Shown: piece after piece, positions 14,953 to 39,350 of the stretch
Position numbering within the stretch: position 1 is the first letter of the stretch
How the letters are laid out: each line of letters begins with the position of its first letter
NCBI GenBank assembly: GCA_020249465.1
Contig: JADCFP010000091.1
Coordinates: 1-55,854 of the forward strand
Source of the DNA: Roseomonas sp.
Lineage (GTDB): Bacteria; Pseudomonadota; Alphaproteobacteria; Acetobacterales; Acetobacteraceae
Direction: 5' to 3'
DNA length: 55,854 bases
The notes under the pieces: model-generated
What the model saw: only the letters and a program-made list of their open reading frames with translations
Databases searched by the model: none
Told to the model about the DNA's origin: nothing
Made by a program: the position numbers and the translations under genes

Positions 14953-15263
14953 CCCCGTTATCCCCAAAGGTTTATGGAAGAATAACGTCGCGCCGGGCCG
15001 GCATTACGTCAAGCCGCAAGATTTACATGTTTTATGGCGCTGCGGCGCGCTTACTGAGCCCAGGTTTAAGGGAAGCTTCACCATTGCCCGAATAGGCTTC
15101 ACCCTCAACAGAAGCGTCGATTCCTAACCATGAAAAACGCGCCTTTGATCTGGTCCAGGGCCCTGTCCCGTAAAACGCTGAGGTGCTGGCCGTCATTGAA
15201 GGAAGGCGCGCGCCTCACCTTTCTCAATCCTTTGTTGATATCATTCGGTTAGGCAGCCTCCCC
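14953..15263. other. Divergent intergenic region, no gene seen
   Basis: This 311-bp gap separates the divergent peptide-binding-protein gene and the histidine kinase and must contain both promoters. I see no convincing -10/-35 pair, RNA fold or small gene. A GTG at 15183 could extend the kinase by 27 residues, but the extra peptide does not look conserved. Confidence 0.5.
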
Positions 15264-17660
15264 ATGACAATAACCTTGCCGCAACACCCGTCAGCAGAAC
15301 CCCCGGCTGCATCGGAAGGTCGCCCCTGGCTGGAATGGAATGCCGAGGCGGATGAGCTGCAGTTTTCTGCCGCGGCGCTGTTCCTTTTGGGCGTGGCGCC
15401 ATCGGAAGCGCCGGCGAATGAGATTGAGCTTGTCGCCCTGTTCAAAAAGCCGAGCCAGAGCAAATTGGCGATCGCGCTGGAAGATATTTTGACGCATGGC
15501 GAATGCCGCCCGGTTGAATTGCTGCGCAAGACCCCGGCGGGCGTGCAGCTTTTTTTGTTCAGCGGTCGTCTCGATCCTTCGCGCCCTGGGCGGCTTGTGA
15601 TCGCCACTTTTGAAGACATAACGAATAGCAGCGATGGTCAACAACATCTGGCGGCCAGGGAGCGCTTCCAGAGTTTCGTCAATCTTCTCCTGCAAAACCC
15701 AACCTTTTTCGTTTCGGTCCCGCTTGGGCTGATGATGGTGACCAATGGCTTCATCATCCAGGCAAACCCGAAACTCACGGAAATTCTTGCAACCCCAATG
15801 GCAAGCCTGGTTGGAGAACCAATCTCGCGCATTCTGTCCGACAAACAGGCTTATGATTTCTACATGGAAACCGTATGGGGTGAAGGCAGTGAACATGGCG
15901 ATGACCATGTGGAAACCGAATTCGAAAATGAAGATGGTACGCGGCTTTGGCTGAAGGTAGGCATTTCGCGCATTGCCGTACCCGGCGATGGTAATTCGTG
16001 CCTTTGCATCATTGAGGATATCACAAGCCGCAAAAAGCTTGAGCAGGATGTCTGGGACGGCCTGGCCGAGACGATCTCTGCCAAGGAGGCGACAGAAAAT
16101 GCTGCCCGCGCCAAGGATGAATTCCTGGCGATGGTAAGCCATGAAATTCGCACCCCCCTTTCGGCGGTGATCGGCATGCAAAGACTTGCGCTGCGCGATC
16201 CGGAATTGCGTGAGAAGACTCGCAAGCATCTGGATATGGCGAAAACCAATGCCGAATTTCTGCTGGAATTGCTGAATGATATCCTCGATTTCTCGAAGAT
16301 TGAGGCTGGAAAGCTGGCACTTGAATCGGTGGATTTCTCGCTCCGCAACCTTGTTGGCGATAGTGTTGCCCTGCTTGCCGAACGTGCGGAGACCAAGAAT
16401 ATCGCCCTTGATGTCGGCATTGATGATGAGGTGCCCGATACGCTGGAAGGCGACCCTGCCCGCATCAAGCAACTCCTGCTGAACCTGATTGGCAATGGCA
16501 TCAAATTCACTGACCATGGCAGCGTTTCGCTCAGGGTCCGGCTACAGGAAAGGCAGGAGGAGAATTGCCGCATCGGCTTTGTGGTAGCGGATACCGGCAT
16601 TGGCATTTCGCCCGATGCCCAGGCAAGGCTGTTCAAGAAATTCACCCAGGCTGACACCTCTACAACCAGGCGTTTTGGCGGCACCGGTCTTGGGCTTGCG
16701 ATCTGCAGGCAGATTGTTGACCTGATGCAAGGCGATATTCACCTGACCAGTCAGCTCGGGCAGGGAAGCTGCTTTACCTTCACCATCCCCTTCAAGCTTG
16801 GTACCAAACCAGGCCAAAGCCGGAATGAGCAATTACGGCCGCATTCGCATCAGTTGCAGATTCTGTGCGCTGAGGATTTTCTGCCAAATCAGCTCATTAT
16901 CCAGGGGCTTTTGGAAGAAATGGGCCATAGGGCTGAATTTGTGGAAAATGGCCGTAAGGCGCTGGAAGCGCTACCCCTGCGCGGCTTCGATCTGATCCTG
17001 ATGGATGGCCGCATGCCGGAAATGGATGGCGCCACGGCGATCCGGCTGATCCGTTCCGGGGGTGATGGGAAATTCCACATCCCCAATTCGAATATCCATA
17101 TCATCATGCTCACCGCCAATGCCGGCGATGAAAGCCGGCAATTCTACCTGTCCTGCGGCGCTGATGATTTTCTGGTCAAGCCGATTGATGAGGCGCAGCT
17201 GCACCAAAGCCTGTCCAGGGTGATTGAAAAGCGGCTTGCGGAGGGTGCCTCTCTCCTCCCATTCCTGCGCGACGATCATGATGCATTGGCGGAGATTTTC
17301 GGTATCGCCCCGGCACCGGCGGGCGCTGCGCCGGAGATCAGGCTTGCAACCTCGGCCACATCCGAAATCACGCAGACAGTGAATTTGAAGGATCGCCTCA
17401 AAAGCGCCTTGCGTGAGGATTTGCCAACCCGAATCAGCGCTCTTGATACGGCCTTTGCCATGCAGGACCTAGGCGCACTGGCACAGCTTTTTCACAGCCT
17501 GAAGGGCAGTGCGGGTTTCATCTGGCCAAGTAGTGATCTTGTGAAACTGAGTATAGAGCTGGAAAAACTGGCTGACATCAATGATTGGGACGCTGTCTCA
17601 AGGGACATATCGCGCCTGCGCGCGATGCTGGTGGAAGTGGCAAAAGGGGCCGAAGCATGA
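15264..17660 (+). CDS. Cytoplasmic hybrid sensor histidine kinase (PAS-HisKA-HATPase-REC-Hpt)
   Basis: A 798-residue hybrid kinase with no membrane segment. Residues ~20-120 form a divergent PAS-like region and ~150-260 a clear PAS (VTNGFIIQANPKLTEIL), followed by a short coiled coil. HisKA has the phospho-acceptor His293 in SHEIRTPLS. The HATPase has N411 in NLIGNGIKFT, DTGIGIS and FGGTGLGLAI. The receiver has AED, phospho-acceptor Asp581 in LILMDGRMPEMDG, T/A in LTANA and Lys in LVKPID. The C-terminal Hpt has His744 in HSLKGSAGF. This is a complete internal phosphorelay. The ATGA overlap with the following response regulator suggests that protein is the output. The signal is unknown but cytosolic. 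Confidence 0.93.
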   Translation: MTITLPQHPSAEPPAASEGRPWLEWNAEADELQFSAAALFLLGVAPSEAPANEIELVALFKKPSQSKLAIALEDILTHGECRPVELLRKTPAGVQLFLFSGRLDPSRPGRLVIATFEDITNSSDGQQHLAARERFQSFVNLLLQNPTFFVSVPLGLMMVTNGFIIQANPKLTEILATPMASLVGEPISRILSDKQAYDFYMETVWGEGSEHGDDHVETEFENEDGTRLWLKVGISRIAVPGDGNSCLCIIEDITSRKKLEQDVWDGLAETISAKEATENAARAKDEFLAMVSHEIRTPLSAVIGMQRLALRDPELREKTRKHLDMAKTNAEFLLELLNDILDFSKIEAGKLALESVDFSLRNLVGDSVALLAERAETKNIALDVGIDDEVPDTLEGDPARIKQLLLNLIGNGIKFTDHGSVSLRVRLQERQEENCRIGFVVADTGIGISPDAQARLFKKFTQADTSTTRRFGGTGLGLAICRQIVDLMQGDIHLTSQLGQGSCFTFTIPFKLGTKPGQSRNEQLRPHSHQLQILCAEDFLPNQLIIQGLLEEMGHRAEFVENGRKALEALPLRGFDLILMDGRMPEMDGATAIRLIRSGGDGKFHIPNSNIHIIMLTANAGDESRQFYLSCGADDFLVKPIDEAQLHQSLSRVIEKRLAEGASLLPFLRDDHDALAEIFGIAPAPAGAAPEIRLATSATSEITQTVNLKDRLKSALREDLPTRISALDTAFAMQDLGALAQLFHSLKGSAGFIWPSSDLVKLSIELEKLADINDWDAVSRDISRLRAMLVEVAKGAEA

Positions 17661-27009: not shown

Positions 27010-27076
27010 AGTTGCGCCCGATACGGGTGGGCGGCATATTGCTGCAAAGCATACTCTAATTTCGGGATTTTTGGGA

Positions 27077-30052
27077 ATGCAGGGCCTGCCGCAGATCATC
27101 AGCCTGGTGCCGCAGACCGGTCTGCAATTCATCGACATCCGGTTCAATCTGGACCGCCTGCCGCGCGCGCCGCGTTCCTTCTGGGAACAGCCGCTGCCCC
27201 CCGGTGCTGAACCGGCGAGCGGCGAGTTGGTTAATCTGCGGCGCCTCACGGAAAACGGCGAAGGCGCGCTGCTGGACCCGATCAGTGGCCGCAGCCCGCC
27301 AGATGAGGAAATCTATCAGATCGGTCGCGGCCAGGCTTTGGAATTCATCCTGGGGCGCTGGTTGCCGCTGCCCTATTTTCGTGTGGCTGCGGTGGGTGCC
27401 TCGGGCCAGGAAGTCTATGACAAGGGGCCGACCAATTGGGCGCGGCTGCGCATCACGGCGTTGTCCGCGCCGGATCAGGAAGGCCATACGCATCATGCTG
27501 TGCTGGCCTTTGATACGGCACTGCGCGCGCGTGAAGAAGGCCGCCCCTATACAGCGATTTCGCCCGCGGATAGCGAACGCGCCGGCGAATTCGCCTTTGT
27601 GTCGGATCGGGAACAGACCAGTTGGTTCATGAACGAACCTTGGCTGATCCAGTGGCTGGAAGAAATCCTGCAGGAAATGCGCTTGGCCAGTGGCCGGCGC
27701 CTTCGGCCCGAGGATGAGCAACGCGCCTGCGAACATTGGGCGCGCTATATCACGCTGCTGGAATTGCTGACCGAAGCGCGCATCCTGCCACGCGTGAAGC
27801 TGGTGGATGTGGTGTCCAACAGTAAATCCTATGAACCGATCAATGTTGATCTGGTATTGGATATCGGCAATGCGCGCACTTGCGGCATTCTGGTGGAAGA
27901 TGAACGCGACAGCCGGCTTAATCTGAACAACAGCTATCCCCTGAAACTGCGAGATTTGAGTGCGCCGGAATTGGGTTATGCCTTTCCCTTCGAAAGCCGC
28001 GTTGAATTTGCGCGTGCGAGTTTCGGCAAGGATGCACTCAGCCGTCGTTCCGGGCGCGGCAATGCCTTTCAATGGCTGAGCCCGGTGCGCATCGGCCCCG
28101 AAGCCGTGCGGCTTTCTGCTGCCGCGCGCGGCAATGAGGGGGCGACGGGGCTTTCATCGCCCAAGCGCTATCTTTGGGATGAAAGGGCCACAACGCAGGT
28201 CTGGCGCTTCAATGGCATGGCCGCGGATGGCGTGACCACGGAACCGCCGGTAAGTGGCAGCTTCATGGCTTGGGTGACGGAAGAAGGCGAAGTGCTGCGC
28301 GCCAAGCCGCGTGGCCGTGGTGGCGCGCCGCGCCAACCTGCCGTGCGTGCGCGCTTCAGCCGTTCATCGCTGATGAGCTTCCTGCTCGCGGAAATCCTGT
28401 TGCAGGCACTGTCACAAATCAATTCGGTCGAAACCCGCTATGCGCGGAGCTTCCCGGATGTGCCGCGACGGCTGCGGCGCATTTTGCTGACCATGCCGCC
28501 GGCCATGGCACTGGCCGAACAGCGGATTTTTCGCCATCGTGCCGAAGCTGCCGTGCGCCTGGCTTGGGATATGATGGGCTGGGGCAATGCGGCACCTGGC
28601 GCCGCTGCACCACCGCCGGAACCACGCATCATCGCCAATTTGGATGAGGCGACGGCGACGCAGCTGGTCTTCCTGTACACCGAAGCAAGCCAGCGTTTGC
28701 GTGGCGATCCTGCGAGCTTCTTTGCGCTGACCGGGCGCGCGCGCGAAGGCTATGGCAAGGCGCCATCGCTGCGTGTGGCGAGCATTGATATTGGTGGCGG
28801 CACCACGGATTTGATGATCTGCACCTATTCCGCCGAAGCCGGACAGGAAATTGAACCGCATCAGAATTTCCGCGAGGGTTTCCGCATTGCGGGTGATGAG
28901 GTGTTGCAGGAGGTCATTCAAAGCATCGTCCTGCCGCAGTTGGAAGAAAGCCTGCGTGTGGCCGGGGCGCGTGACCCAAAGGCGTTGCTGCGTGAAGTGC
29001 TGGGTGGTGATCGCGGGGCGCAAAGCGAATTGGAACGGCATTTGCGCCGGCAATTCGTGACACAAGTGCTGGAACCGACCGGGCTTGCGATCCTGCATGG
29101 CTACGAAAAGATAGATGAACGCGCGAGCGGTGAATTTCTCCGTGAGAAGCTGGCGTCCATCCTTCAGGGTCGCGATGTGGCGGCGCCCTTGCGTTACTTC
29201 GAACAACAGGCAGCGCGTGCCGGGGCTTCCGGATTCCAATTGCTGGAAGCGGAAATGGCCGCCGCCGCAGGCAGTGTGGATGCGATTGTGCAGGCAGCGC
29301 TTGGCCAGGTGATCGCTGATCTCTGCGAAGTTGTTTATGCCTTTGATTGCGATTGGCTGCTGCTGTCTGGCCGGCCATCCAGGCTGCGCGCGATATTTGA
29401 CATGGTGCTGGCGAAGATGCCCGTGCCGCCACATCGCATTGTCGGCATGCATCGCTATCGCGCCGGAAGCTGGTATCCCTTCCGCGATTCCGCCGGGCGC
29501 GTGGATGATCCGAAAACCACGGCAGCGGTTGGCGCCATGCTCTGCGCCGTGGCGGAAGGGCGTTTAGAAAATTTCCTGATGCGCACAAGCAGGCTTGCCA
29601 TGCGTTCGACCGCCAAATACCTCGGACGGATGGAAATTTCGGGGCAGATTCTTCGGCAAAATGTGCTGCTGCAAGACCCGGATGCGGCACTGCCCAAGGC
29701 GCCGGGTGCATCGCAGGATGTGAAATTCACCATGGAGTTCCGTGCGCCGGTTTTTCTTGGCTTCCGTCAACTGGATCTGGAGCGCTGGACCGCGAGCCGG
29801 CTTTACATTCTGGAATATGCCAATCCCGATAACGTGCCGCGGCTGAAACTGCCCTTGAAGCTTGCCATTCAGCGCGCCGAAATAGACCCCGAAAGCGCGG
29901 ATGCCGAGGAATTGCGGGAGGATTTCAGTATAGACGAGATCCTGGATGCGGAGGGCGATCCGCAGCATCGCGGCATTGTACGACTGCGCCTGCAAACCGA
30001 ACGCAGTGAGGCTGGCTATTGGCGCGATACCGGCGCGCTTTCGGTGCCGTGA
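27077..30052 (+). CDS. srfB: SrfB-family protein (actin/Hsp70-like ATPase fold)
   Basis: A 991-residue SrfB-family protein, named from an SsrB-regulated Salmonella gene; biochemical role unknown. The sequence carries the marks of an ASKHA (actin/Hsp70) ATPase: phosphate-1 loop LDIGNARTCGI (~261-271), phosphate-2 loop IDIGGGTTD (570-578), and adenosine motif LLLSGRPS (761-768). An N-terminal ~250-residue domain and a C-terminal beta-rich tail lie outside this core. There is no signal peptide or membrane segment, so it should be cytosolic. I start at ATG 27077. It heads a row of seven plus-strand genes; srfC follows after 10 bp. The last ~100 codons are acidic. Confidence 0.88.
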   Translation: MQGLPQIISLVPQTGLQFIDIRFNLDRLPRAPRSFWEQPLPPGAEPASGELVNLRRLTENGEGALLDPISGRSPPDEEIYQIGRGQALEFILGRWLPLPYFRVAAVGASGQEVYDKGPTNWARLRITALSAPDQEGHTHHAVLAFDTALRAREEGRPYTAISPADSERAGEFAFVSDREQTSWFMNEPWLIQWLEEILQEMRLASGRRLRPEDEQRACEHWARYITLLELLTEARILPRVKLVDVVSNSKSYEPINVDLVLDIGNARTCGILVEDERDSRLNLNNSYPLKLRDLSAPELGYAFPFESRVEFARASFGKDALSRRSGRGNAFQWLSPVRIGPEAVRLSAAARGNEGATGLSSPKRYLWDERATTQVWRFNGMAADGVTTEPPVSGSFMAWVTEEGEVLRAKPRGRGGAPRQPAVRARFSRSSLMSFLLAEILLQALSQINSVETRYARSFPDVPRRLRRILLTMPPAMALAEQRIFRHRAEAAVRLAWDMMGWGNAAPGAAAPPPEPRIIANLDEATATQLVFLYTEASQRLRGDPASFFALTGRAREGYGKAPSLRVASIDIGGGTTDLMICTYSAEAGQEIEPHQNFREGFRIAGDEVLQEVIQSIVLPQLEESLRVAGARDPKALLREVLGGDRGAQSELERHLRRQFVTQVLEPTGLAILHGYEKIDERASGEFLREKLASILQGRDVAAPLRYFEQQAARAGASGFQLLEAEMAAAAGSVDAIVQAALGQVIADLCEVVYAFDCDWLLLSGRPSRLRAIFDMVLAKMPVPPHRIVGMHRYRAGSWYPFRDSAGRVDDPKTTAAVGAMLCAVAEGRLENFLMRTSRLAMRSTAKYLGRMEISGQILRQNVLLQDPDAALPKAPGASQDVKFTMEFRAPVFLGFRQLDLERWTASRLYILEYANPDNVPRLKLPLKLAIQRAEIDPESADAEELREDFSIDEILDAEGDPQHRGIVRLRLQTERSEAGYWRDTGALSVP

Positions 30053-30062
30053 GGATCAGGCA

Positions 30063-32693
30063 ATGACAACACCGAATGCCGAAAACGAAGCCCTGGCGCA
30101 AAGCTGCGATGCGGTGGCGGATGCCGCGCATGGGGCCATTGAATGGATCGCCCAGGCCGGCGATGTGGTGCGCGAAGAAGGCCCTGCCTTGGCGCGCGAT
30201 TTCCGGCGCGAAGGCTTGCGCGCGCGCAAGCTTGCCAATGCTGCACGCCGGCCCATGTGCGTTTCCGTCTTTGGCCCAAGCCAACAGGGGAAAAGTTATC
30301 TGATCGCCTCCCTGGCGCGGAAGGAAGGCAAGCCAACCACGATCCGCTTTGGGGAGGAGTTGCGCGGCTTCAACCGCGACATCAACCCCGATGGTGGTAA
30401 GGAATCAACCGGCCTTGTGACGCGCTTCACGACACGCCCGGTGAACGGCCTGCCTGGCATGCCTGTGGTCTGCCGCATGCTGTCTGAAACCGACATCGTG
30501 AAAATCATGGCGAATGCCTTCATGGAGGATTTTGACCGTGACACGGTGATCCCGCTTGATGGCGCCGTAATCGAAGCGAGCCTTGCCAAAGCCCGCGCGA
30601 AGGCTGCGCCGGTGGCGGTAGGACGGCTGAATGAAGATGATATCTATGATCTGTTCGAGTATTTCGAACGCTATTTCCTGAACCATCCGACGCATCTGGC
30701 GCTGAAGCCAGGTGCCTGGCGGGAAATTGAAAGCCTGGCGCCGCGTCTTGCCATTGCGGATCGGGTGGAGCTTTACGGCTTGCTTTGGAACACTACGCCA
30801 ACCATGACAGCGACCGCACTGAAATTGGTGCAGGCTCTGGCGCAGCTCGATTTTCCGGAAGAAGCCTGCTGCCCGATGCTGGCGGTCGAGCCCAAGGCGC
30901 AAAGCATTATTGATGTCGAAACCATGTCCCTTCTCGGCAAGGGCGATGGCGACCCCGTGCCGGTGGCTACCCGCGCCGGGCGGCGCGCGGAATTGCCGCG
31001 CGCGGTGCTCACGGCCGTTGTGGCCGAATTGCAGTTGCAGCTTGAAGACAAGCCCTTTGATTTTTTTGACTACACCGATCTGCTCGATTTTCCCGGTGCA
31101 CGCGGACGCGAGAAATACAACGCCGCCAAGGCCGAGGAAGTGGCGCAGAGCGATCTTTTCATGCTGCTCAGGCGCGGCAAGGTTGCTTATCTCTATCAGC
31201 GCTATCTGGCGGAACAGGAACTGACTTCCATGTTGCTCTGCCTGAAGCACAGCAATCAGGAAGTGCGCACCGTGCCCGCCATGGTGCGGAACTGGATTGA
31301 TGGCACGCATGGCGCCACGCCAGAGGCACGAAAGGGCCAGGATGTCGCCTTGTTTCTGGTGCTCACTATGTTCGACATGGAATTTGAGATCAAAGGCGGC
31401 GCCGAAGACAATGTGGAACGCTGGTCCACCAGGTTAAAGACGACAATTTTCGAATTCCTGGGTCTTGGCCATGATTGGCCATCGGAATGGGTGCCGGGCC
31501 AGCCTTTCAATAATACGTTTTGGCTGCGTAACCCTGAAGTGCTGAACAAGGGACTTTTGGACTATGACGCCAATGGGCGCGAGGCGAGCTTCCGCGATCC
31601 GGCGCGGGTAGCGCAATTGAAAGCGAATTTCCTTGCCAATCCGGATGTGCAAAAGCATTTCGCTGATCCCGAACGCGCCTGGGAAGCGGGCATGGCGTTG
31701 AATGATGGCGGCATTGGCTATCTTTCCGAAAAGCTCCGCCCGGTCTGCAATCCTGCGCTCAAGCGCCGTCAGGTGCAGGGACAATTGGGTGATCTTGCCA
31801 AGCGCATGGCGGGAAGGCTGGAAGGCTATCATGTCTCCGGCGATCTGGACGCCGAATTGGCCAAGCGTCGGGCGGAAGCGCGGCTGGTCGGGCGGCAACT
31901 ACTCGCTTGCGCGGAAGCTCAGGCTTTTGGGTTGTTGCTGCGCGAATTGCAGGTGCAGGGCGAAACCCTGGCCGAACTGTTCCGCCGCCAGCAATTGGCT
32001 GCGGCCGAAACACCTTCTGCCGTAACCGCGCCAGTCGGGCGCAAGACCACGGCGCGGGAATTGCGGAGCGAATTTGAAGCACTGTTTGAAGATGATCCCG
32101 CACCCGCTGCCCCGGTTGAAGAAGCGGAAGAAGGCCCGCGCGATCAGGCTGATCTTTTTGCGGAGGCTGCGGTGGCGGAATGGTTGCAGAATATGCACCG
32201 CTTCGCTGCGCGCAATGACAGCCCTGAATTGTTCCGCATGGACCGCGAAGCCATTGCGACATTGGTTGCGCAGCTTGCTGCCGCCGCACGTCGCTTGAAG
32301 CTGCGCGAAAACATCGCAACGCGCATGAGGACCGAGGCCGCCTATAATGAATCCATGGCCAATCGGCTGCTGAAACCAGTGATGATTGCCGAACGCGCGA
32401 TCAATGATTTCGTCACCTGGATGGGTTTTGACAGGATGCCGATTGAAGCCCGCCCCAAGGCCGGGCGTGAAGGGCGCAGCATTTTCATCCGCCCGCCAGC
32501 GCCTGCCGATGACATGCCGCGGCTTTCCGAAACGCCCATTGCCTATGACGCTGCGTTTTACGTTGACTGGGCGGTCGCTTTTGTGCGGCTGGTGGAAGAC
32601 AATGTGCGTGGCGCGGGCGGTGCGATGGTGGATGAAAAATCCAATGCCCGTCTCGGCAGCCTGCTGAGTGGGCTCCGGAAGGCAGCCGCCTGA
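30063..32693 (+). CDS. srfC: SrfC-family protein (dynamin-like P-loop GTPase)
   Basis: An 876-residue SrfC-family protein (putative bacterial virulence factor family). The Walker A/G1 is GPSQQGKS (71-78). A candidate switch-I Thr lies in ESTGLVT (~114-120), G3-like DFPGARG is at 342-348, and a G4-like TMFD is at 435-438 in place of T/NKxD. The long helical C-terminal half with acidic and Pro/Ala-rich stretches (~700-740) resembles the stalks of bacterial dynamin-like proteins. No membrane helix is present. Membrane remodelling or scaffold action is inferred from the fold only. It is tightly linked to srfB (10 bp) and to the bitopic-protein gene (26 bp). Confidence 0.86.
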   Translation: MTTPNAENEALAQSCDAVADAAHGAIEWIAQAGDVVREEGPALARDFRREGLRARKLANAARRPMCVSVFGPSQQGKSYLIASLARKEGKPTTIRFGEELRGFNRDINPDGGKESTGLVTRFTTRPVNGLPGMPVVCRMLSETDIVKIMANAFMEDFDRDTVIPLDGAVIEASLAKARAKAAPVAVGRLNEDDIYDLFEYFERYFLNHPTHLALKPGAWREIESLAPRLAIADRVELYGLLWNTTPTMTATALKLVQALAQLDFPEEACCPMLAVEPKAQSIIDVETMSLLGKGDGDPVPVATRAGRRAELPRAVLTAVVAELQLQLEDKPFDFFDYTDLLDFPGARGREKYNAAKAEEVAQSDLFMLLRRGKVAYLYQRYLAEQELTSMLLCLKHSNQEVRTVPAMVRNWIDGTHGATPEARKGQDVALFLVLTMFDMEFEIKGGAEDNVERWSTRLKTTIFEFLGLGHDWPSEWVPGQPFNNTFWLRNPEVLNKGLLDYDANGREASFRDPARVAQLKANFLANPDVQKHFADPERAWEAGMALNDGGIGYLSEKLRPVCNPALKRRQVQGQLGDLAKRMAGRLEGYHVSGDLDAELAKRRAEARLVGRQLLACAEAQAFGLLLRELQVQGETLAELFRRQQLAAAETPSAVTAPVGRKTTARELRSEFEALFEDDPAPAAPVEEAEEGPRDQADLFAEAAVAEWLQNMHRFAARNDSPELFRMDREAIATLVAQLAAAARRLKLRENIATRMRTEAAYNESMANRLLKPVMIAERAINDFVTWMGFDRMPIEARPKAGREGRSIFIRPPAPADDMPRLSETPIAYDAAFYVDWAVAFVRLVEDNVRGAGGAMVDEKSNARLGSLLSGLRKAAA

Positions 32694-32719
32694 GACATGC
32701 AACCTAAAGGCCGCACCAC

Positions 32720-33757
32720 ATGAATCTGCGTGTTGAAAATGATCGGCGCCTTTCCCTTGGCCATGCGCGCATCACCATTGCCGGCCTGCAAGTGCCGGCT
32801 GATGGTGGCTTTCGGATCATGCGCGAAGGCTATGCTGCGGCCAATCTTGGGCGGCGTGGCTGGCAGGTGCAGGAAGAAAAACTGACCCCGGTGGAAATTC
32901 GCCAGGAAGGGGCGGACACTGTTCTAGTGCTTGGGCCACGGCTGACGCGGCATCTGGAACCTGGCCCGCTGGTTTTTCTTTTGCCTGCGACAGGTTTGGA
33001 AACAAGCCTGTTCTGGCCAGATGATATTGATGTCTTCGACGGTGACTTACCGCCCGAACCGGTCATGCCGCGAGAGCCGGAAGTAGCGCCAAAGCCCCCC
33101 CCGATTGCCGCAGCACCGCCCGCGCCTCCGACTACGCCAGCGCCGCGCGAAGATGTGGCGGTGACGACAGCAGAGCCAAGCCAATCGCGCACGCCATTGC
33201 TGGCAGGGATAGGGCTACTGTTGCTGGCCGTGATTGGCGGCGCTGCGTGGTGGTTCACCTCAGCACCACAACCTGCACCCATCGCAGCACCTGCGCCGAC
33301 GCCGCCTGCACCGCAAGTGCCAGCGCCAACACCGCCGGCACCACCACCCGCACCGGTCACAGCGGAACGGCCATGGCTTGAACGCAGCGATGGCATGAGC
33401 TTGCGTGATCTGGTGCAATCTGCCTCGGATGCTGCCGCGATCCATGCCGCCGCGCTCAGGCGTCAGGCAGCCGGGCGGCATGATGATGCGCTGGTATTGT
33501 TTGAAGAAGCGGGCGAACGCGGACATGCGCCGGCGCTAACCGCCGTGGCGCGTTTGTATGACCCGATTGGCTTTGTCGCCGGCCGCCCCTTCCGCGCACC
33601 TGATCCGCGTGCGGCGGCGCGCTATTATCGCGATGCGGTGCAGAAGGGTGATGCGGCGGCAGCGGCACCGCGTGCTGCACTCAAGACCTGGCTGGAAGAA
33701 CAAGCGCGTGCGGGCAATGGCACGGCGGAAAGCGCGCTCAAGGAATTCTGGCAATGA
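32720..33757 (+). CDS. Single-pass membrane protein with proline-rich linkers and Sel1/TPR-like C-terminus
   Basis: I do not recognise a named family. The 345-residue protein has an N-terminal ~105-residue beta-rich domain (RVENDRRLSLGHARITIAGLQV...), a Pro/Ala linker (~112-150), one membrane helix LLAGIGLLLLAVIGGAAWWF (~159-178), a second Pro-rich linker (~180-212), and a helical C-terminus. The C-terminus has Sel1/TPR-like features (LFEEAGERGHAPALTAVARLYDP, AARYYRDAVQKGDAAA). Charge suggests N-in, C-out, so it could link cytosolic SrfB/SrfC to the periplasmic vWA and SUMF1 proteins. AAAGG precedes the start, and its stop overlaps the vWA gene by ATGA. Confidence 0.75.
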   Translation: MNLRVENDRRLSLGHARITIAGLQVPADGGFRIMREGYAAANLGRRGWQVQEEKLTPVEIRQEGADTVLVLGPRLTRHLEPGPLVFLLPATGLETSLFWPDDIDVFDGDLPPEPVMPREPEVAPKPPPIAAAPPAPPTTPAPREDVAVTTAEPSQSRTPLLAGIGLLLLAVIGGAAWWFTSAPQPAPIAAPAPTPPAPQVPAPTPPAPPPAPVTAERPWLERSDGMSLRDLVQSASDAAAIHAAALRRQAAGRHDDALVLFEEAGERGHAPALTAVARLYDPIGFVAGRPFRAPDPRAAARYYRDAVQKGDAAAAAPRAALKTWLEEQARAGNGTAESALKEFWQ

Positions 33758-35703
33758 TGTTGCGTCGTGCAGCTTTGGTGCTGGTGCTTGGCCTGTTCTG
33801 CATCGGGCCAGTGGCGGAAGTCAGCGCGCAGCAGGCGGCACGGCAACCGCTACTGATGGAAGGGCGCAGCGCGTTATTCCAGCGCGTGATCTTACGCCCA
33901 GGCGCGCGGCTGGCGGAACGGCCGGATGCAAACGCGCCTGCGCAGCCAACGCCAGGCTTTGGCGTGTTCTACGTCTATGCACGGCAGGGCAGTGGGGCTG
34001 ATGCCTGGCTTGAGATTGGCGCCGCGCAGGATGGCCGCACGCAGGGTTGGGTGCGCGCGGAACGTACGATTGATTGGAAGCAGACCATGGTGCTGGCTTT
34101 CAACAATCCCGCCGGGCGCGAACGCGCCATGTTCTTCCGCGAAGCTGAAACACCGCGCGCACTATGGTTGAATACACGCGGCGGTGCGGCGGAAGCCGCG
34201 CGGCTGCGCGAAGCGGCGCGCGCCAATACCGAAGGCCCAGTGATTGCGCTGGAACCTGAGAATTTCATTGATATCACGCGGCAATTCTATCTGCTGCCGA
34301 TCATCTCGGCCCAGCGCGTGGAAAATGAAGCGGCGCAGGAAGCGCGGCTGCTGGAGGTGATTTCAGCCCCCGCTCAAGCCGCACCACCGCCGCCTGCTGA
34401 TCCGGATGCGCTCCGCAATTATCGCGGTGCGGTGGTTTTTGTGGTGGATACCACCATTAGCATGGGGCCTTATATTGAACGCACGCGGGAAGCGCTGAAG
34501 CGCGTGGTGGATCGCATTCGTGATACCGCCGTGCGTGACAATTTCCGCTTCGGCATGGTCGCCTTCCGCGACCATATGGGCGGCAATCCCAGGCTTGAAT
34601 ATGTCACGCGCATGGTGTCCCTGCCTGATCTGGCCGAGGCTTCGGATGCGATCCTGCCGCGCCTGTCCCAATTGGCCGAAGCACGCGAGAGCAATGAAGG
34701 CTTTGATGAGGATTCTCTCGCTGGCATCAAGCTCGCCTTGGATGAGGTTCCCTGGCAGCAATATGGCGGGCGCTTTGTCATTCTTATCACGGATGCCGGC
34801 GCGCGCGATGCGAAGGACCCGCGCGGGCAGACGCAAATGGGCCCGGAAGAAATGCGCCAATTGGCGCAGTCTGAGGCAAAGCAGGTTGCGATCTACGCCA
34901 TTCATCTGAAGACCCCTGAAGGGCGCAACAACCACGCGCGGGCTGAACGGCAATACCGTGAACTGACGCGCTTCGGCGCGGCGGGGGAGCTTTATTACCC
35001 AATCAATGAGGGCAACCTGAACCAATTCGGCCAGACCGTGGATGGGCTGACAGACGCGCTGCTGGCGCAAGTGGCTGCCGCCGTCGGGCGGCCCATTGCG
35101 GGCATCCGCGCGCCGCAGAGCGCGGCGGAAAGGCGCCTTTCGGAACAGGCGGAGATTGTCGGCACGGCCATGCGGCTTTCCTATCTGGGACGTGAGCGGC
35201 AACAAACCGCGCCTGATGTGGTGCGAAGCTTTGTGCTGGATCAGGAATTGAACCCTGCCGATCCGCGCCCCGAAAAACGGCCCTTGGATGTGCGCGTATT
35301 GCTCACGCGCAATCAGCTTTCTGATCTGGCAACGACCTTGCGCAATATCATCCAGGCGCAAGCGGCAGCGCGGCTTTCACCGGAAAGCTTTTTTGAGCGT
35401 GTGCGCGCTGCCGCCGCCGCGACCGCGCGTGACCCGCGCCGCATGGCGGAATTTCAGCGCCTTGGCGGGGCTTTTGGTGAATTCCTCCAGGATCTGCCCT
35501 ATCAAAGCCAGATCATGGAATTCACGCAGGAAGAATGGAACAGCATGGGCGCTGGGCGGCGCACTGAAATCGTCAATGCGCTGGAAGCGAAGCTGCGCCT
35601 TTTTGAGGAATTCAATCGCCAGCCCTCCCTTTGGGTAAGTTTCGATGGCGGGCGCAATCCTGGTGAGGCGATGTATCCCGTGCCGCTGGATGCGCTGCCC
35701 TGA
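33754..35703 (+). CDS. Exported SH3b-vWA domain protein
   Basis: A 649-residue periplasmic protein. The signal peptide (LRRAALVLVLGLFCIGPVAEVSA) is followed by an SH3b-like domain (~40-108: VILRPGARLAERPDANAP... GWVRAERTIDW), a linker, and a von Willebrand A domain (~224-400). The MIDAS begins VVDTTIS (232-236, DxTxS rather than the usual DxSxS), and an Asp follows ILITDAGARD (347). The C-terminal ~250 residues are helical. SH3b domains often bind cell-wall peptides, and vWA domains bind protein partners through the metal site. AAGGA lies 9 bases before the ATG, which overlaps the upstream stop; the ABC gene follows after 8 bp. Confidence 0.85.
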   Translation: MMLRRAALVLVLGLFCIGPVAEVSAQQAARQPLLMEGRSALFQRVILRPGARLAERPDANAPAQPTPGFGVFYVYARQGSGADAWLEIGAAQDGRTQGWVRAERTIDWKQTMVLAFNNPAGRERAMFFREAETPRALWLNTRGGAAEAARLREAARANTEGPVIALEPENFIDITRQFYLLPIISAQRVENEAAQEARLLEVISAPAQAAPPPPADPDALRNYRGAVVFVVDTTISMGPYIERTREALKRVVDRIRDTAVRDNFRFGMVAFRDHMGGNPRLEYVTRMVSLPDLAEASDAILPRLSQLAEARESNEGFDEDSLAGIKLALDEVPWQQYGGRFVILITDAGARDAKDPRGQTQMGPEEMRQLAQSEAKQVAIYAIHLKTPEGRNNHARAERQYRELTRFGAAGELYYPINEGNLNQFGQTVDGLTDALLAQVAAAVGRPIAGIRAPQSAAERRLSEQAEIVGTAMRLSYLGRERQQTAPDVVRSFVLDQELNPADPRPEKRPLDVRVLLTRNQLSDLATTLRNIIQAQAAARLSPESFFERVRAAAAATARDPRRMAEFQRLGGAFGEFLQDLPYQSQIMEFTQEEWNSMGAGRRTEIVNALEAKLRLFEEFNRQPSLWVSFDGGRNPGEAMYPVPLDALP

Positions 35704-35711
35704 GGGCATGC

Positions 35712-36467
35712 ATGAACCAAAACGCGCCGACCTTGTTGCTGCAAGATGTAGTTATCCGCCATCAGGCACCAGGCGGCGCGCCTGGTTTTGAATTGGTGGT
35801 CGAAGCCTTCTGCATCGCGCGTGGCGAGGCTTTGGCGCTGGTGGGGTCTTCCGGTTCTGGCAAATCCACCTTGCTCGATCTGCTGGCCTTGGCGCGGCGC
35901 CCCGCAAGTGCCGCGCAATTCCTGCTGACGCCGCGCGATGGCACGGCAATTGATCTGGCTGCACTGTGGCGCGCCCGCAATGAAAATCGCCTCACCGCCA
36001 TTCGTGCCGCGCATTTCGGCTATGTATTGCAAACGGGTGGGTTGCTGCCGTTTCTATCCGTGCGTCGCAATATTGCGCTGAGCCAGGCTGTGCTGGGCCG
36101 GCCTGATCCCGCGCATATCGAAGCCTTGGCAGCGCGGCTTGAAATTGCGGCTTTGCTGGACAGGACGCCTGCGTCGCTCTCCGTTGGGCAAAGGCAGCGT
36201 GTCGCGATTGCGCGCGCCTTGGCGCATCGCCCGGAAATCCTGCTGGCAGATGAACCAACGGCGAGTGTTCATCCCGCCTTGGCCGATACGGTGATGGCGC
36301 TGCTGCTGGAACAGGCGCGCGAACAGGATACGGCGCTGATCCTGGCAACGCATGATCCTGACCGCGCTGCGCGGCATGGTTTTACGCTGCTGCCGATCCA
36401 GACGGAAGCGAGCCAAGGTGCCGGGCGTTCCTGGCTTAGCCGCGCAAGGGCAGACGTGCCGGCATGA
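35712..36467 (+). CDS. ABC transporter ATP-binding protein (LolD/FtsE/MacB-like)
   Basis: Cytoplasmic ATPase subunit, 251 aa. Walker A GSSGSGKST (~44-52), Q-loop VLQTGGLLPFLSVRRNI, signature LSVGQRQRVAIARAL, Walker B ILLADEPTASVHP and H-loop ATHD are all intact. The signature reads LSVGQ rather than LSGGQ. It belongs to the LolD/FtsE/MacB type that works with FtsX-like permeases in mechanotransmission rather than classical transport. The ATG overlap with the next gene (ATGA) pairs it with the permease. Confidence 0.92.
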   Translation: MNQNAPTLLLQDVVIRHQAPGGAPGFELVVEAFCIARGEALALVGSSGSGKSTLLDLLALARRPASAAQFLLTPRDGTAIDLAALWRARNENRLTAIRAAHFGYVLQTGGLLPFLSVRRNIALSQAVLGRPDPAHIEALAARLEIAALLDRTPASLSVGQRQRVAIARALAHRPEILLADEPTASVHPALADTVMALLLEQAREQDTALILATHDPDRAARHGFTLLPIQTEASQGAGRSWLSRARADVPA

Positions 36468-37678
36468 GAAGACATACCGGGCTGCTGGCAGGGCTTTCGC
36501 TGCGTGATCTTTTGCATGAACGCACCCTGGCGCTTTGTTCCCTGATCGCCCTGGCGGCGGTGCTGGCGCCGCTGATTGTGCTGTTTGGCTTGAAGCAGGG
36601 TGTGATTGATGGCCTGCGGGCGGAGCTGATTGATAATCCGCGCAGCCGCATGGTGGTGAATGCGGCCAATCGCAATTTCGATGCGGCGTTCCTCACGCGC
36701 CTTGCCGCGCGGCCTGATATCGCTTTCGTCATTCCGCGTGTTCGCAGCCTGAATACCGAAGCGCGGTTTGAAAACCCAGCACGCCCGGGCACGGTGCTGC
36801 GCGCGGAATTGCTTGCCACCGCCGCGGGCGATCCCTTGCTGCAGGGCCTGCCCAGCATCGCGCCGCGCCAGATCATCCCAAGCGCTTCCTTCGCGGCGCG
36901 GCTTGATCTGCAAACCGGCATGCAGGTGACGCTGCGTGCCATTCGCGGTGATGCCAGCGCGCGGGAAGTCTTGAATCTGCCGGTCACGGTCGCGGCCATC
37001 GCGCCGCCGAGTGCCTTTGGGCGAGATGGTGTTTTTGTGGATCTGAAGACACTGCTGCTGGTGGATGGCTTCACCGATGGCACGCTGCCAGCCACCACAA
37101 ACCCCACCGATATCGCGGATGATCCGACGCGGATTTTTGCCGGCTTTCGTGCCCATGCGCGGCGGCTGGAAGATGTTACGCGCATAGACCATGATCTACG
37201 CCGCGATGGCGTGGAGGTTGAAACGTTGGCGGAACAGGTGGCCGGCTTGCTCAGCCTTGATCGCAGCCTGACGCTGCTATTTACCTTGCTCGCGGGTTTG
37301 GGTGGTCTTGGGTATCTCGTGTCGCTTGGGGTTGGGCTTTATGCCAATGTGGAACGCAAACAGCGTGATCTTTCGCTGCTGCGGCTGATTGGGCTTTCGC
37401 GGCGTGATCTTGTGGTATTTCCGCTTTTGCAGGCGCTGATCATCGCGGCTACGGGCGCGGCCTTGGCGGGGTTGTTGGCGCTGGGTGTGGCAGGGCTGGT
37501 TAATCGCTTGCCGCTTGGTGGTGCCAATCCTGCGGGCGGGCGCGCCCTTTGTGTCATTGCGGTGGAGCATCTTTTGCTCGCGCTGCTTGTCAGCCTTTTG
37601 GGCGCGGCGCTATCCGCCGCTTTTGCCGGGTATCGCGCCGCCCGGATCGAACCTGCAGAGGGGCTTCGCGATGCGTAA
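36464..37678 (+). CDS. FtsX/MacB-like ABC permease
   Basis: A 404-residue membrane protein with the four-helix FtsX/MacB plan. Helix 1 is LCSLIALAAVLAPLIVLFGL. A ~220-residue periplasmic domain follows (~50-270), then three C-terminal helices: LLFTLLAGLGGLGYLVSLGVGLYA, LLQALIIAATGAALAGLLAL and LLLALLVSLLGAALSAAFAG. The cytoplasmic loop LRLIGLSRRDLVVFPLLQ is the usual coupling segment to the ATPase. It overlaps the ATPase gene (ATGA) and the SUMF1-like gene (8 bp). Family members transmit ATP-driven motion across the membrane to extract lipoproteins, move substrates or activate wall hydrolases; which applies here is unknown. Confidence 0.9.
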   Translation: MRRHTGLLAGLSLRDLLHERTLALCSLIALAAVLAPLIVLFGLKQGVIDGLRAELIDNPRSRMVVNAANRNFDAAFLTRLAARPDIAFVIPRVRSLNTEARFENPARPGTVLRAELLATAAGDPLLQGLPSIAPRQIIPSASFAARLDLQTGMQVTLRAIRGDASAREVLNLPVTVAAIAPPSAFGRDGVFVDLKTLLLVDGFTDGTLPATTNPTDIADDPTRIFAGFRAHARRLEDVTRIDHDLRRDGVEVETLAEQVAGLLSLDRSLTLLFTLLAGLGGLGYLVSLGVGLYANVERKQRDLSLLRLIGLSRRDLVVFPLLQALIIAATGAALAGLLALGVAGLVNRLPLGGANPAGGRALCVIAVEHLLLALLVSLLGAALSAAFAGYRAARIEPAEGLRDA

Positions 37679-39350
37679 GCTAATCATTGCCTTGATCACC
37701 ATGGCAACAACCCTGCCACAAGCCGGTCGGGCGCAGGAAAGATGGGCGGCGGAATTCTGGAACCCAAAGCCCATCCCCGATGATCTGATCCTGCCCATGC
37801 CCTGCGGCGGCGCCATGGTATTCCGCCCGGTGCCAACACCGCTCGGACAGGGTTTGCTTGCCGATCGGCCGGCCATGTTGGGTCAGTCCGATGCGGCAAC
37901 CAATTACAGTGAATTTCTGCGCCAGAGCTTCATCGCCGGCCCGTTTCGCGGCAGCGATGCCGCTGCACCGCCGCGCTATTACATCGGCAAATATGAGGTG
38001 ACGCGCGATCAATATAGCGCTGTCACCAGTGAAACCTGCCCCACCCCCGCCACCGCCGGCCGCCTGCCGCAAGCGGATGTTGCCTGGCATGAGGCGATTG
38101 GCTTCACGCTGCGGTATTCCGCCTGGCTTGCCCGCAATGCGCGTGATGCCTTGCCGATGCGTGATGATGCGCGCGCCTTTGTGCGCCTGCCGACGGAAGA
38201 TGAATGGGAATTCGCTGCGCGCGGCGGTGCGGCGGTATCAGAAGCGGATTTCAGCGCGCGTGTATTCCCCATGCCGGAAGGCATGCAGCGCCATGTCTGG
38301 TTTCAGGGTACGCGATCCTCAGGCGGGCGCGTGCGGCCCATTGGCATGCTGGAACCCAATCCGCTTGGGGTTTTCGATATCCTCGGAAATGTCGCGGAAT
38401 GGGTGCTGGAACCCTATCGGCTCAATCGCGTTGGGCGGCCTCATGGCCAGGCCGGCGGCATGGTGGCGCGTGGTGGGGATTTCCTGACGCCGGAAGATCA
38501 AATCCGTTCAAGCCTGCGCGTGGAATTGCCGCCGCTTGATCGCAATGGCGAAGCACTGCGGCTGCGCAGCCTTGGCTTTCGCCCGGTGCTTGCTTTGGTT
38601 GCGACAAGCAGCGATCAGCGCCCCGCACAATTGCGCGCGGCGTTTGAAGCTGAAGCGCAATCGCGTGGCAGCGCCAGCGATGATCCGGCGCGGCTGTTGG
38701 AAGTGTTGAAGAATGACACGCCAGACCCGGCGCTGCGCCAGGGCATTGATCGTGTAGGCGCGGCGCTGCGTACCGCGCAACGAGAGCGCAATGACCAGGA
38801 AATGCAGGCGATCCAAGGCCAGATCGCCGCCGCCGCGCAAATCGGCCGGCAAATCCTGCTCGCAGAAGGTTTTGGCGAATTGCTTGGCGCCTTTGCGCGC
38901 GTACAGGCGGAAACCGTGCAGGCGCAGCGCACGCTTGCCGAAGATCAGGGCCGCATCGCGGCCGCAACACAGGCGGATGTGCAAGCAGCACTCCGTCGGC
39001 AGCAGGAACGTACGCAGCAAATCACCAATACCATGGCGCGTATTGAAGCGGCGCTGCGGAGCCAGGCGGAAGGCCAGCCCGCGCGTGCGCAGGAATTGAC
39101 CGCGAGCTATCTGCGCAGCGTGCTGGCCGTTGGCCGCAGTGCGGATCGGCTCCGTATCGCGGATGCGGGCAATGTAGTGCAACAGGAAATGCAGGCGCAG
39201 AATGTGCAATATTTGCCGGAATTGGCGCGCATTGCGGCGCGGCACATGGTCGCGGTCAGCAATGGCAATCCACCAAGCCGGGAACAGGCTTTGGCTGATC
39301 TGAAATCCGTCTTGCCGCCAGCAACACCGGCGCCGCCAGCGCGGCGTTAG
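37671..39350 (+). CDS. Exported SUMF1/FGE-fold protein with long helical C-terminus
   Basis: A 559-residue protein with a signal peptide (KLIIALITMATTLPQAGRA). The formylglycine-generating-enzyme/SUMF1 fold (~95-308) shows YYIGKYEVTRDQY, RLPTEDEWEFAARGG (172-186), GNVAEW (239-244), RGGDF and the closing LGFRPVL (301-307). The cysteine pair that binds copper in active FGE is absent at the C-terminal end of the fold, so it is probably a binding or structural domain. Residues ~315-559 are Gln/Ala/Glu-rich helices that look like coiled coil. GAGGGG lies 9 bases before the ATG, which is inside the permease stop region. Last gene of the Srf-type row. Confidence 0.85.
   Translation: MRKLIIALITMATTLPQAGRAQERWAAEFWNPKPIPDDLILPMPCGGAMVFRPVPTPLGQGLLADRPAMLGQSDAATNYSEFLRQSFIAGPFRGSDAAAPPRYYIGKYEVTRDQYSAVTSETCPTPATAGRLPQADVAWHEAIGFTLRYSAWLARNARDALPMRDDARAFVRLPTEDEWEFAARGGAAVSEADFSARVFPMPEGMQRHVWFQGTRSSGGRVRPIGMLEPNPLGVFDILGNVAEWVLEPYRLNRVGRPHGQAGGMVARGGDFLTPEDQIRSSLRVELPPLDRNGEALRLRSLGFRPVLALVATSSDQRPAQLRAAFEAEAQSRGSASDDPARLLEVLKNDTPDPALRQGIDRVGAALRTAQRERNDQEMQAIQGQIAAAAQIGRQILLAEGFGELLGAFARVQAETVQAQRTLAEDQGRIAAATQADVQAALRRQQERTQQITNTMARIEAALRSQAEGQPARAQELTASYLRSVLAVGRSADRLRIADAGNVVQQEMQAQNVQYLPELARIAARHMVAVSNGNPPSREQALADLKSVLPPATPAPPARR

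Follow-up and report, generated by a model that had tools for sequence, protein, structure and literature searches.

What could tie SrfB and SrfC, two proteins annotated as virulence factors whose function has been called unclear (PMC3608642; this and the other papers are cited for the passages concerned), to a von Willebrand factor A (vWA) protein, an ATP-binding cassette (ABC) transporter pair and a SUMF1-fold protein? The question is raised by a locus on contig JADCFP010000091.1 of Roseomonas sp., where srfB and srfC head a run of seven genes at positions 27077-39350 of the window (by which we mean the whole stretch of 55,854 nucleotides that was analyzed). The last four of these genes encode homologues of parts of TagQRST-PpkA, a pathway of the type VI secretion system (T6SS) that is summarized in PMC10482370 and that is required, through tagQ and ppkA, for the response of Pseudomonas aeruginosa to outer-membrane damage (PMC11881912). 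We give about an even chance to the reading that the locus is a TagQRST/PpkA-type envelope-damage sensor with SrfB/SrfC as its output instead of T6SS, where the response to damage is suggested by analogy.

All seven reading frames (7/7) were found on the plus strand, where successive genes point the same way and are either separated by short gaps (10, 26 and 8 bp) or overlap (by 4, 4 and 8 bp), as the first-pass annotation of this DNA had described them, and Pfam bears out its family calls of SrfB, SrfC, vWA, ABC, FtsX and SUMF1. The first gene, srfB (27077..30052, with an alternative start possible at the in-frame TTG at 27071), matches PF07520 with 964 bits and encodes a protein without a hydrophobic segment, and srfC (30063..32693), whose product is P-loop GTPase-like, matches PF10139 with 772 bits. 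The third gene (32720..33757) encodes a bitopic Pro-rich protein, a candidate adaptor, that has no Pfam match at 0.01 and is made up of an N-terminal beta domain, Pro-rich linkers, a single transmembrane (TM) segment at residues 157-182 by Kyte-Doolittle hydrophobicity and a C-terminal Sel1/TPR domain. It is followed by the genes for the vWA protein (33754..35703; VWA_4, E 1.9e-7), the ABC ATPase (35712..36467; ABC_tran, 1.1e-25), the FtsX-type permease (36464..37678; FtsX, 3.9e-8) and the SUMF1-fold protein (37671..39350; FGE-sulfatase, 2.2e-27). The vWA protein had been called an exported SH3b-vWA protein; its vWA domain and an N-terminal hydrophobic segment are found, but an SH3b domain has no Pfam match. 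The permease has one hydrophobic region near its N terminus and three near its C terminus. For the SUMF1-fold protein, also called exported, the fold family holds, but the hydrophobicity scan stays below threshold and the N terminus is signal-peptide-like by eye alone. This last protein is apparently non-catalytic: with a crude pattern, no Cys was found in the scanned segment at what we take to be the position of the copper-binding catalytic Cys pair of formylglycine-generating enzyme, and the same pattern gives a Cys-free segment in 56 of the 58 proteins that have the motif, with 8 further proteins lacking the motif.

Gene neighbourhoods and alignments outside the window bear on the sensor reading. 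In Tistrella pTM1 the same four genes (vWA-ABC-FtsX-SUMF1) belong to a T6SS cluster that has no srf genes, where they come immediately after those for TagF, a PP2C phosphatase and a Ser/Thr kinase. Elsewhere, in other genomes, the vWA part and the kinase form one fused protein, as they do in PpkA. The window's vWA protein is 36-38% identical over ~630-680 residues to the proteins in the PpkA position of T6SS loci, which may be fused (residues 366-990 of the L128 protein) or split (L131, L132), its ABC ATPase is 48-52% identical to those in the TagT position, its FtsX-type permease 36-38% identical to those in the TagS position and its SUMF1-fold protein 34-42% identical to those in the TagR position, and all four matches span most of the protein length. 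These alignments identify the SUMF1-fold protein as a homologue of TagR, the ABC/FtsX pair as homologues of TagT/TagS and the vWA protein as a homologue of the periplasmic half of PpkA. The link to T6SS, the best functional lead that we have, was absent from the first-pass annotation. The same proteins bear on the possibility of a Lol- or MacB-like ABC pair that exports lipoproteins or SUMF1/vWA complexes, with SrfB/SrfC as chaperone-like assembly factors. LolD and MacB families are among the best 25 of 187 NCBIfam matches of the ATPase, all of them below cut-off, and SrfB has Hsp70-like motifs, but the match of the pair to TagT/TagS of T6SS loci over most of its length, where the role is one in signalling, leaves such an exporter very improbable.

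The bitopic protein is assigned with weaker support. Its profile aligns with the TM and Sel1 part of the Tistrella kinase, residues 307-465 (E 2e-16 in a small set), and in an AlphaFold model of the bitopic protein the N-terminal domain is rich in beta structure and is followed by one TM helix and a Sel1/TPR domain. A Foldseek search with the beta domain returned no match at <=0.001, the rest including weak Ig-like matches, and a VIA-align comparison of the protein covered mainly residues 216-345. The profile match together with the gene position suggests that the bitopic protein is the counterpart of the membrane/Sel1 portion of a split PpkA and that a small beta domain has the kinase's place.

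It is also useful to consider which parts of the T6SS pathway accompany the module. Neither the bitopic nor the vWA protein has a Pfam kinase match, and none of the 81 srf-locus stretches (0/81, a count that includes near-copies of the window) has a kinase, PP2C, TagF, TssM or TssK match, as against the six T6SS loci, where all five are present (these loci were defined by the presence of TssM and are five distinct places, L105 and L131 being one place counted twice). Six srf loci (L067, L068, L069, L071, L072 and L077) have a gene on the opposite strand that weakly matches the IcmH profile, with 53-113 bits, perhaps through an OmpA-type domain only. In the window's draft genome (G000), which is 97.5% complete, no match was found to TssC (PF05943) or TssK (PF05936), the two T6SS families that were searched genome-wide. 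TssC is unmatched in 16 of 46 SrfB genomes, the window's included (G050, G075 and G087, less than 90% complete, were left out of this search), and 11 of those 16 carry the full seven-gene locus; TssK is unmatched in the window's genome and 7 more.

Proteins resembling TagQ and SrfA are encoded elsewhere in the same genome, on contig C59 (L171:2024-7645), where three SrfA-type genes, one of them encoding a trypsin-like domain, are followed by a gene for a TagQ-like glycine-zipper protein and one for a second small lipoprotein-like protein. The TagQ-like family occurs in 38 of 85 loci, comprising many srf loci, three T6SS loci in which it comes directly after TagR, and two tubulin-linked loci. 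Iterated profiles of the TagQ-like protein recover the proteins after TagR in L128-L130. Its N-terminal part alone (lipobox and glycine zipper, without the coiled coil) finds 34 loci, the three T6SS and two tubulin-linked members among them, and matches the T6SS members with E values of 1e-24 to 1e-28; the C-terminal part alone finds 27 loci, none of them with T6SS or tubulin-linked members, and direct blastp of the C59 protein to the T6SS proteins gave none at 1e-3. By its N-terminal homology the glycine-zipper protein of C59 qualifies as a TagQ-like putative lipoprotein. SrfA-type N-terminal domains are found in 93 proteins from 54 loci. Among the 82 that were scanned (79 of the 93 and 3 from the window's genome), a trypsin-like domain is present in 7, a vWA domain in 7 and DUF2135 in 2; in 80 of them a hydrophobic stretch falls within residues 100-350. 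The possibility that SrfA is a relative of the bitopic protein was rejected; the iterated SrfA profile drifted into Pro-rich and TM stretches, and the N-terminal domain alone was used for SrfA searches.

The two proteins at the head of the locus carry nucleotide-binding motifs. In SrfB the D-x-GGG-TTD motif (motif 2) is present in every protein scanned (78/78) and the motif-1 pattern in 48 of the 78, and the hhalign scores against the genome's own DnaK (36.5; best of 100 shuffles 30.4) and MreB (37.2; best of 100 shuffles 27.0) exceed those of the shuffles and also of five unrelated proteins; a profile search against the PDB gave no significant match. Since the HH probabilities, at 15 and 25%, are low and both motifs are in register in one DnaK alignment alone, the default alignments (56 and 24 columns) lying away from the motifs, support for SrfB as a protein of Hsp70/actin type is moderate, and the earlier description of it as actin-like is kept at that strength on the phosphate motifs and the scores against shuffles. 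For SrfC, GxxxxGK[ST] is present in 72 of 74 proteins scanned and DFPG/DLPG in 71 of 74, and the PDB profile search returned nothing significant, as did that with the vWA protein. Of the earlier call of a dynamin-like GTPase, the P-loop GTPase motifs thus stand, but dynamin has no significant profile match behind it.

These properties can be set against a reading in which SrfA/B/C are exported as a cytotoxic complex or effector whose release is controlled by the TagQRST-like module. The Xenorhabdus SrfABC proteins are described as a toxin complex, toxic to cultured cells (PMC6950479), and export of SrfC under the control of PpkA has been suggested (Campbell et al., 2013; PMC3608642). However, the srf loci have no kinase match, neither TssC nor TssK is matched in the window's genome, SrfB and SrfC combine nucleotide-binding motifs with the lack of a hydrophobic segment, and the hydrophobic stretch in the middle of nearly all SrfA-type proteins scanned is of the kind found in membrane proteins, so that we consider export of the complex unlikely.

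Whether the seven genes belong together was addressed with a survey of loci chosen by SrfB (PF07520) alone. This family was found in 32 of 200 genomes of the window's family, 15 of 289 genomes of a class sample and 22 of 398 genomes of a phylum sample (one of these below cut-off; G389 was left out of the survey for a match below cut-off). The window's family, taken here as Acetobacteraceae in the class Alphaproteobacteria, contributes 33 loci: 22 with the full ordered set, 8 truncated at contig ends and 3 incomplete (one lacks only the ABC gene in the scan used). From the rest of the class come 12 loci, with 6 full, 2 cut and 4 incomplete (in one only SUMF1 is absent, and in G797 bitopic-vWA-ABC-FtsX lie on another contig), and from the rest of the phylum 16, with 3 full, 1 cut and 12 incomplete, the last all in a single family (f49). 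The share of uncut SrfB loci with the full order is therefore 22 of 25 in the window's family, 6 of 10 in the remainder of the class and 3 of 15 in the remainder of the phylum. In the class sample a vWA protein is present in 13 of 15 SrfB genomes, one being a fragment at a contig end, and the co-occurrence of SrfB and vWA has a Fisher p of ~1e-14 if at most 10 genomes without SrfB have the vWA protein. The conserved order, which recurs in distant genera, and this co-occurrence exclude chance adjacency. The survey and the homology agree with the first-pass annotation that the genes are one conserved set, in which the bitopic protein and the ABC pair come between SrfB/SrfC and vWA/SUMF1; srfBC loci that consistently lack the five downstream genes, which it had taken as contrary to such a set, are not what the window's family and class contain, but are what f49 contains. 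A close relative of the window has a tandem pair of vWA genes (L031:16666-20336).

Copies of the locus are also found on mobile elements. A tblastn search with the vWA protein matched 125 of 72,556 plasmid records, Klebsiella accounting for 114, and four of the six plasmid stretches that were read (Enterobacter, Klebsiella, Gluconobacter and Cereibacter) have the seven-gene order; the Thiodictyon stretch has vWA and ABC only. In E. coli ET650 a complete eleven-gene Srf/Tag set, from TagQ-like to SUMF1 (L176:7230-27828), lies on a tRNA-Phe island with an integrase and IS1. The stretch from bitopic to SUMF1 is present in 31 of 5426 E. coli genomes, all chromosomal, and in 28 of them at an identity of at least 99% to the Klebsiella plasmid stretch; among ten of these genomes listed, the sources are frogs or sediment. 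The plasmid copies, the island with its integrase and the patchy distribution are features that would suit a defence system that responds to phage or contact attack by killing the cell or sealing it, and the homologous sensor is known to trigger retaliation after attack (PMC11881912). On the other side, PADLOC returned matches for the ABC ATPase only, to generic ATPase families, and SrfB was matched in 0 of 50,697 phage records, the latter of little bearing on defence. We regard a defence role as rather unlikely.

The module is occasionally joined to Tubulin_2 (PF13809) rather than to srf genes. In two loci from one genus (L149:6201-17478 and L150:6088-17949), Tubulin_2 stands directly upstream of a bitopic-vWA-ABC-FtsX-SUMF1-TagQ-like set. 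Three other Tubulin_2 loci are without the module (L151, which has a lone ABC match, L155, with a weak bitopic match, and L156), the window's genome has no Tubulin_2 match and that of G376 is below cut-off. A tree of the vWA proteins clusters by gene context, with 7 changes of context against a mean of 12.7 for shuffled labels and none of 200 shuffles as low; this tree has long branches and was midpoint-rooted for drawing only, and the direction of exchange is not given by it. It was built without the near-identical L021-L041 (except L033, L035 and L039), L105 (the same place as L131) and fragments of less than 450 residues, and the rows L138 and L147 are labelled "other" with their SrfB on another contig, for which same reason L126 was labelled srf by hand. 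The protein of the plasmid copy in Gluconobacter albidus TMW2.1191 (L104) falls among those of the window's family. The nearest row to the window's is L039, 73% identical, from an srf locus on a contig named Nitrosovibrio, which may reflect a mixed bin or transferred genes.

With homology, order, breadth and the lack of matches to a kinase and two T6SS markers established, a stimulus and an action can be proposed from the T6SS pathway by analogy. Outer-membrane damage would be sensed by TagQ/TagR, and the TagST transporter would relay the signal to the vWA/bitopic complex. The cytosolic beta domain of the bitopic protein would then recruit or activate SrfB, as an Hsp70/actin-type ATPase, and SrfC, as a GTPase, at the site of damage, where the inner membrane and SrfA-type proteins would be their local targets. 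The shared N-terminal domain of SrfA might dock SrfB/SrfC, with the variable far domains (protease, vWA and others) working in the envelope, and the outcome would be local envelope repair or protection.

Several observations weigh against this sensor mechanism. The module lacks the kinase domain by which PpkA signals, and damage sensing by the Srf-linked module is proposed by analogy. The relation of the bitopic protein to PpkA leans on gene position as well because pairwise blastp against T6SS kinases is weak (E 0.008 in one run and none at 1e-3 in another) and because the matches to fused PpkA fall in the Pro-rich/TM linker. Two genus-mates of the window's strain (G104 and G160) have the full locus together with TssC, and therefore the sensor could serve T6SS there; this and the weaker bitopic-PpkA link reduce our confidence in the mechanism. 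Further outputs, or none, are possible since two vWA-ABC-FtsX-SUMF1 modules (L125:8520-15796 and L148:3581-10304) have no srf, T6SS or Tubulin_2 genes beside them in the sequence covered. Conversely, srf genes occur without the sensor: G337 and G841, both of the class, have srfB-srfC-bitopic and lack vWA to SUMF1, and in f49 12 of 13 loci have at most one of the five downstream genes, all 12 being without bitopic, vWA, FtsX and SUMF1 (in two, an ABC gene with a longer frame that looks unrelated lies ~3 and ~5 kb beyond srfC). On a Rhizobium plasmid (L177:12968-24394), the genes after srfB-srfC-bitopic are different ones, possibly another partner set; one is annotated as a member of glycoside hydrolase family 3, and no vWA-module match lies beside them. 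Finally, the fold predicted for SrfC (pLDDT 45, from an 8-row alignment) is unusable, and the SrfABC proteins of the toxin complex mentioned above were reported to be toxic to cultured cells.

A broader proposal, for which we see somewhat less than an even chance, is that TagQRST serves Proteobacteria as a general and exchangeable receptor of envelope damage that feeds at least three outputs, namely T6SS via the kinase, SrfB/SrfC via a kinase-less adaptor, and Tubulin_2, where SrfA-type membrane proteins with exchangeable far domains would be the tools of the Srf version. The Srf version may be as old as the T6SS version or older. What the comparison offers is a tie between SrfB/SrfC and a sensor whose stimulus, outer-membrane damage, is known elsewhere, which makes their function directly testable, and it suggests that the damage sensor of T6SS is a part used with several outputs. 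The plasmid copy in Gluconobacter provides a tractable host.

The surroundings of the seven genes are less constant. No SrfA gene lies directly upstream of the window's srfB, the upstream genes being M23 and xseA, and the flanks vary among 64 loci, with DUF155 in 6, xseA in 16 and M23 in 16, the last two being confined to near relatives of the window. These neighbours are not carried along with the seven-gene set. Farther upstream, at positions 15183-17660 of the window, a hybrid histidine kinase (PAS, HisKA, receiver and Hpt) has a GC content of 0.56-0.57, below that of its surroundings.

How, then, does the locus compare with described systems? It resembles the TagQRST-PpkA pathway in its homologues of TagT, TagS, TagR and the vWA half of PpkA, in the TagQ-like putative lipoprotein, in the order vWA-ABC-FtsX-SUMF1 and in the probable TM-Sel1 part of a split PpkA, and it is unlike that pathway in that srf loci are without matches to a kinase domain, PppA, TagF, TssM or TssK and have srfB/srfC as neighbours. 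The FtsZl1/Tubulin_2 systems, for which membrane remodelling has been proposed (Makarova and Koonin, 2010; PMC2875224; placement of Tubulin_2 in PMC9871819), likewise combine a nucleotide-driven cytoskeleton-type protein with vWA proteins and GTPases, and in L149 and L150 Tubulin_2 precedes the same sensor module, whereas the window's genome has SrfB/SrfC in its place. The sensor-less srfABC operon of f49 shares the SrfA family, SrfB and SrfC, but there the downstream genes are mostly absent, and the srfA-like genes of the window's genome are on another contig. The nearest precedent in print concerns host-associated Deltaproteobacteria, in which srfABC was reported alongside tagQ and ppkA, in most cases also with tagR/S/T, and for the most part in the absence of T6SS machinery (Campbell et al., 2013; PMC3608642); in mainly open-access literature, covered by titles and abstract openings, no second report linking srf genes to TagQRST/PpkA was found. 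Its association of srf with so-called TPP genes is like that seen here; the PpkA kinase is named there but was not found in our srf loci, the two having been compared by description. With this report of 2013, and with the homology of the membrane half to TagRST and the periplasmic half of PpkA, the earlier label of an undescribed machine has to be given up. The finding is nonetheless real, partly in print and a testable lead on the function of SrfB/SrfC, and what is new here, beyond the published srf-tag association, is its breadth, the missing kinase, the mobile copies and the rare Tubulin_2-linked version.

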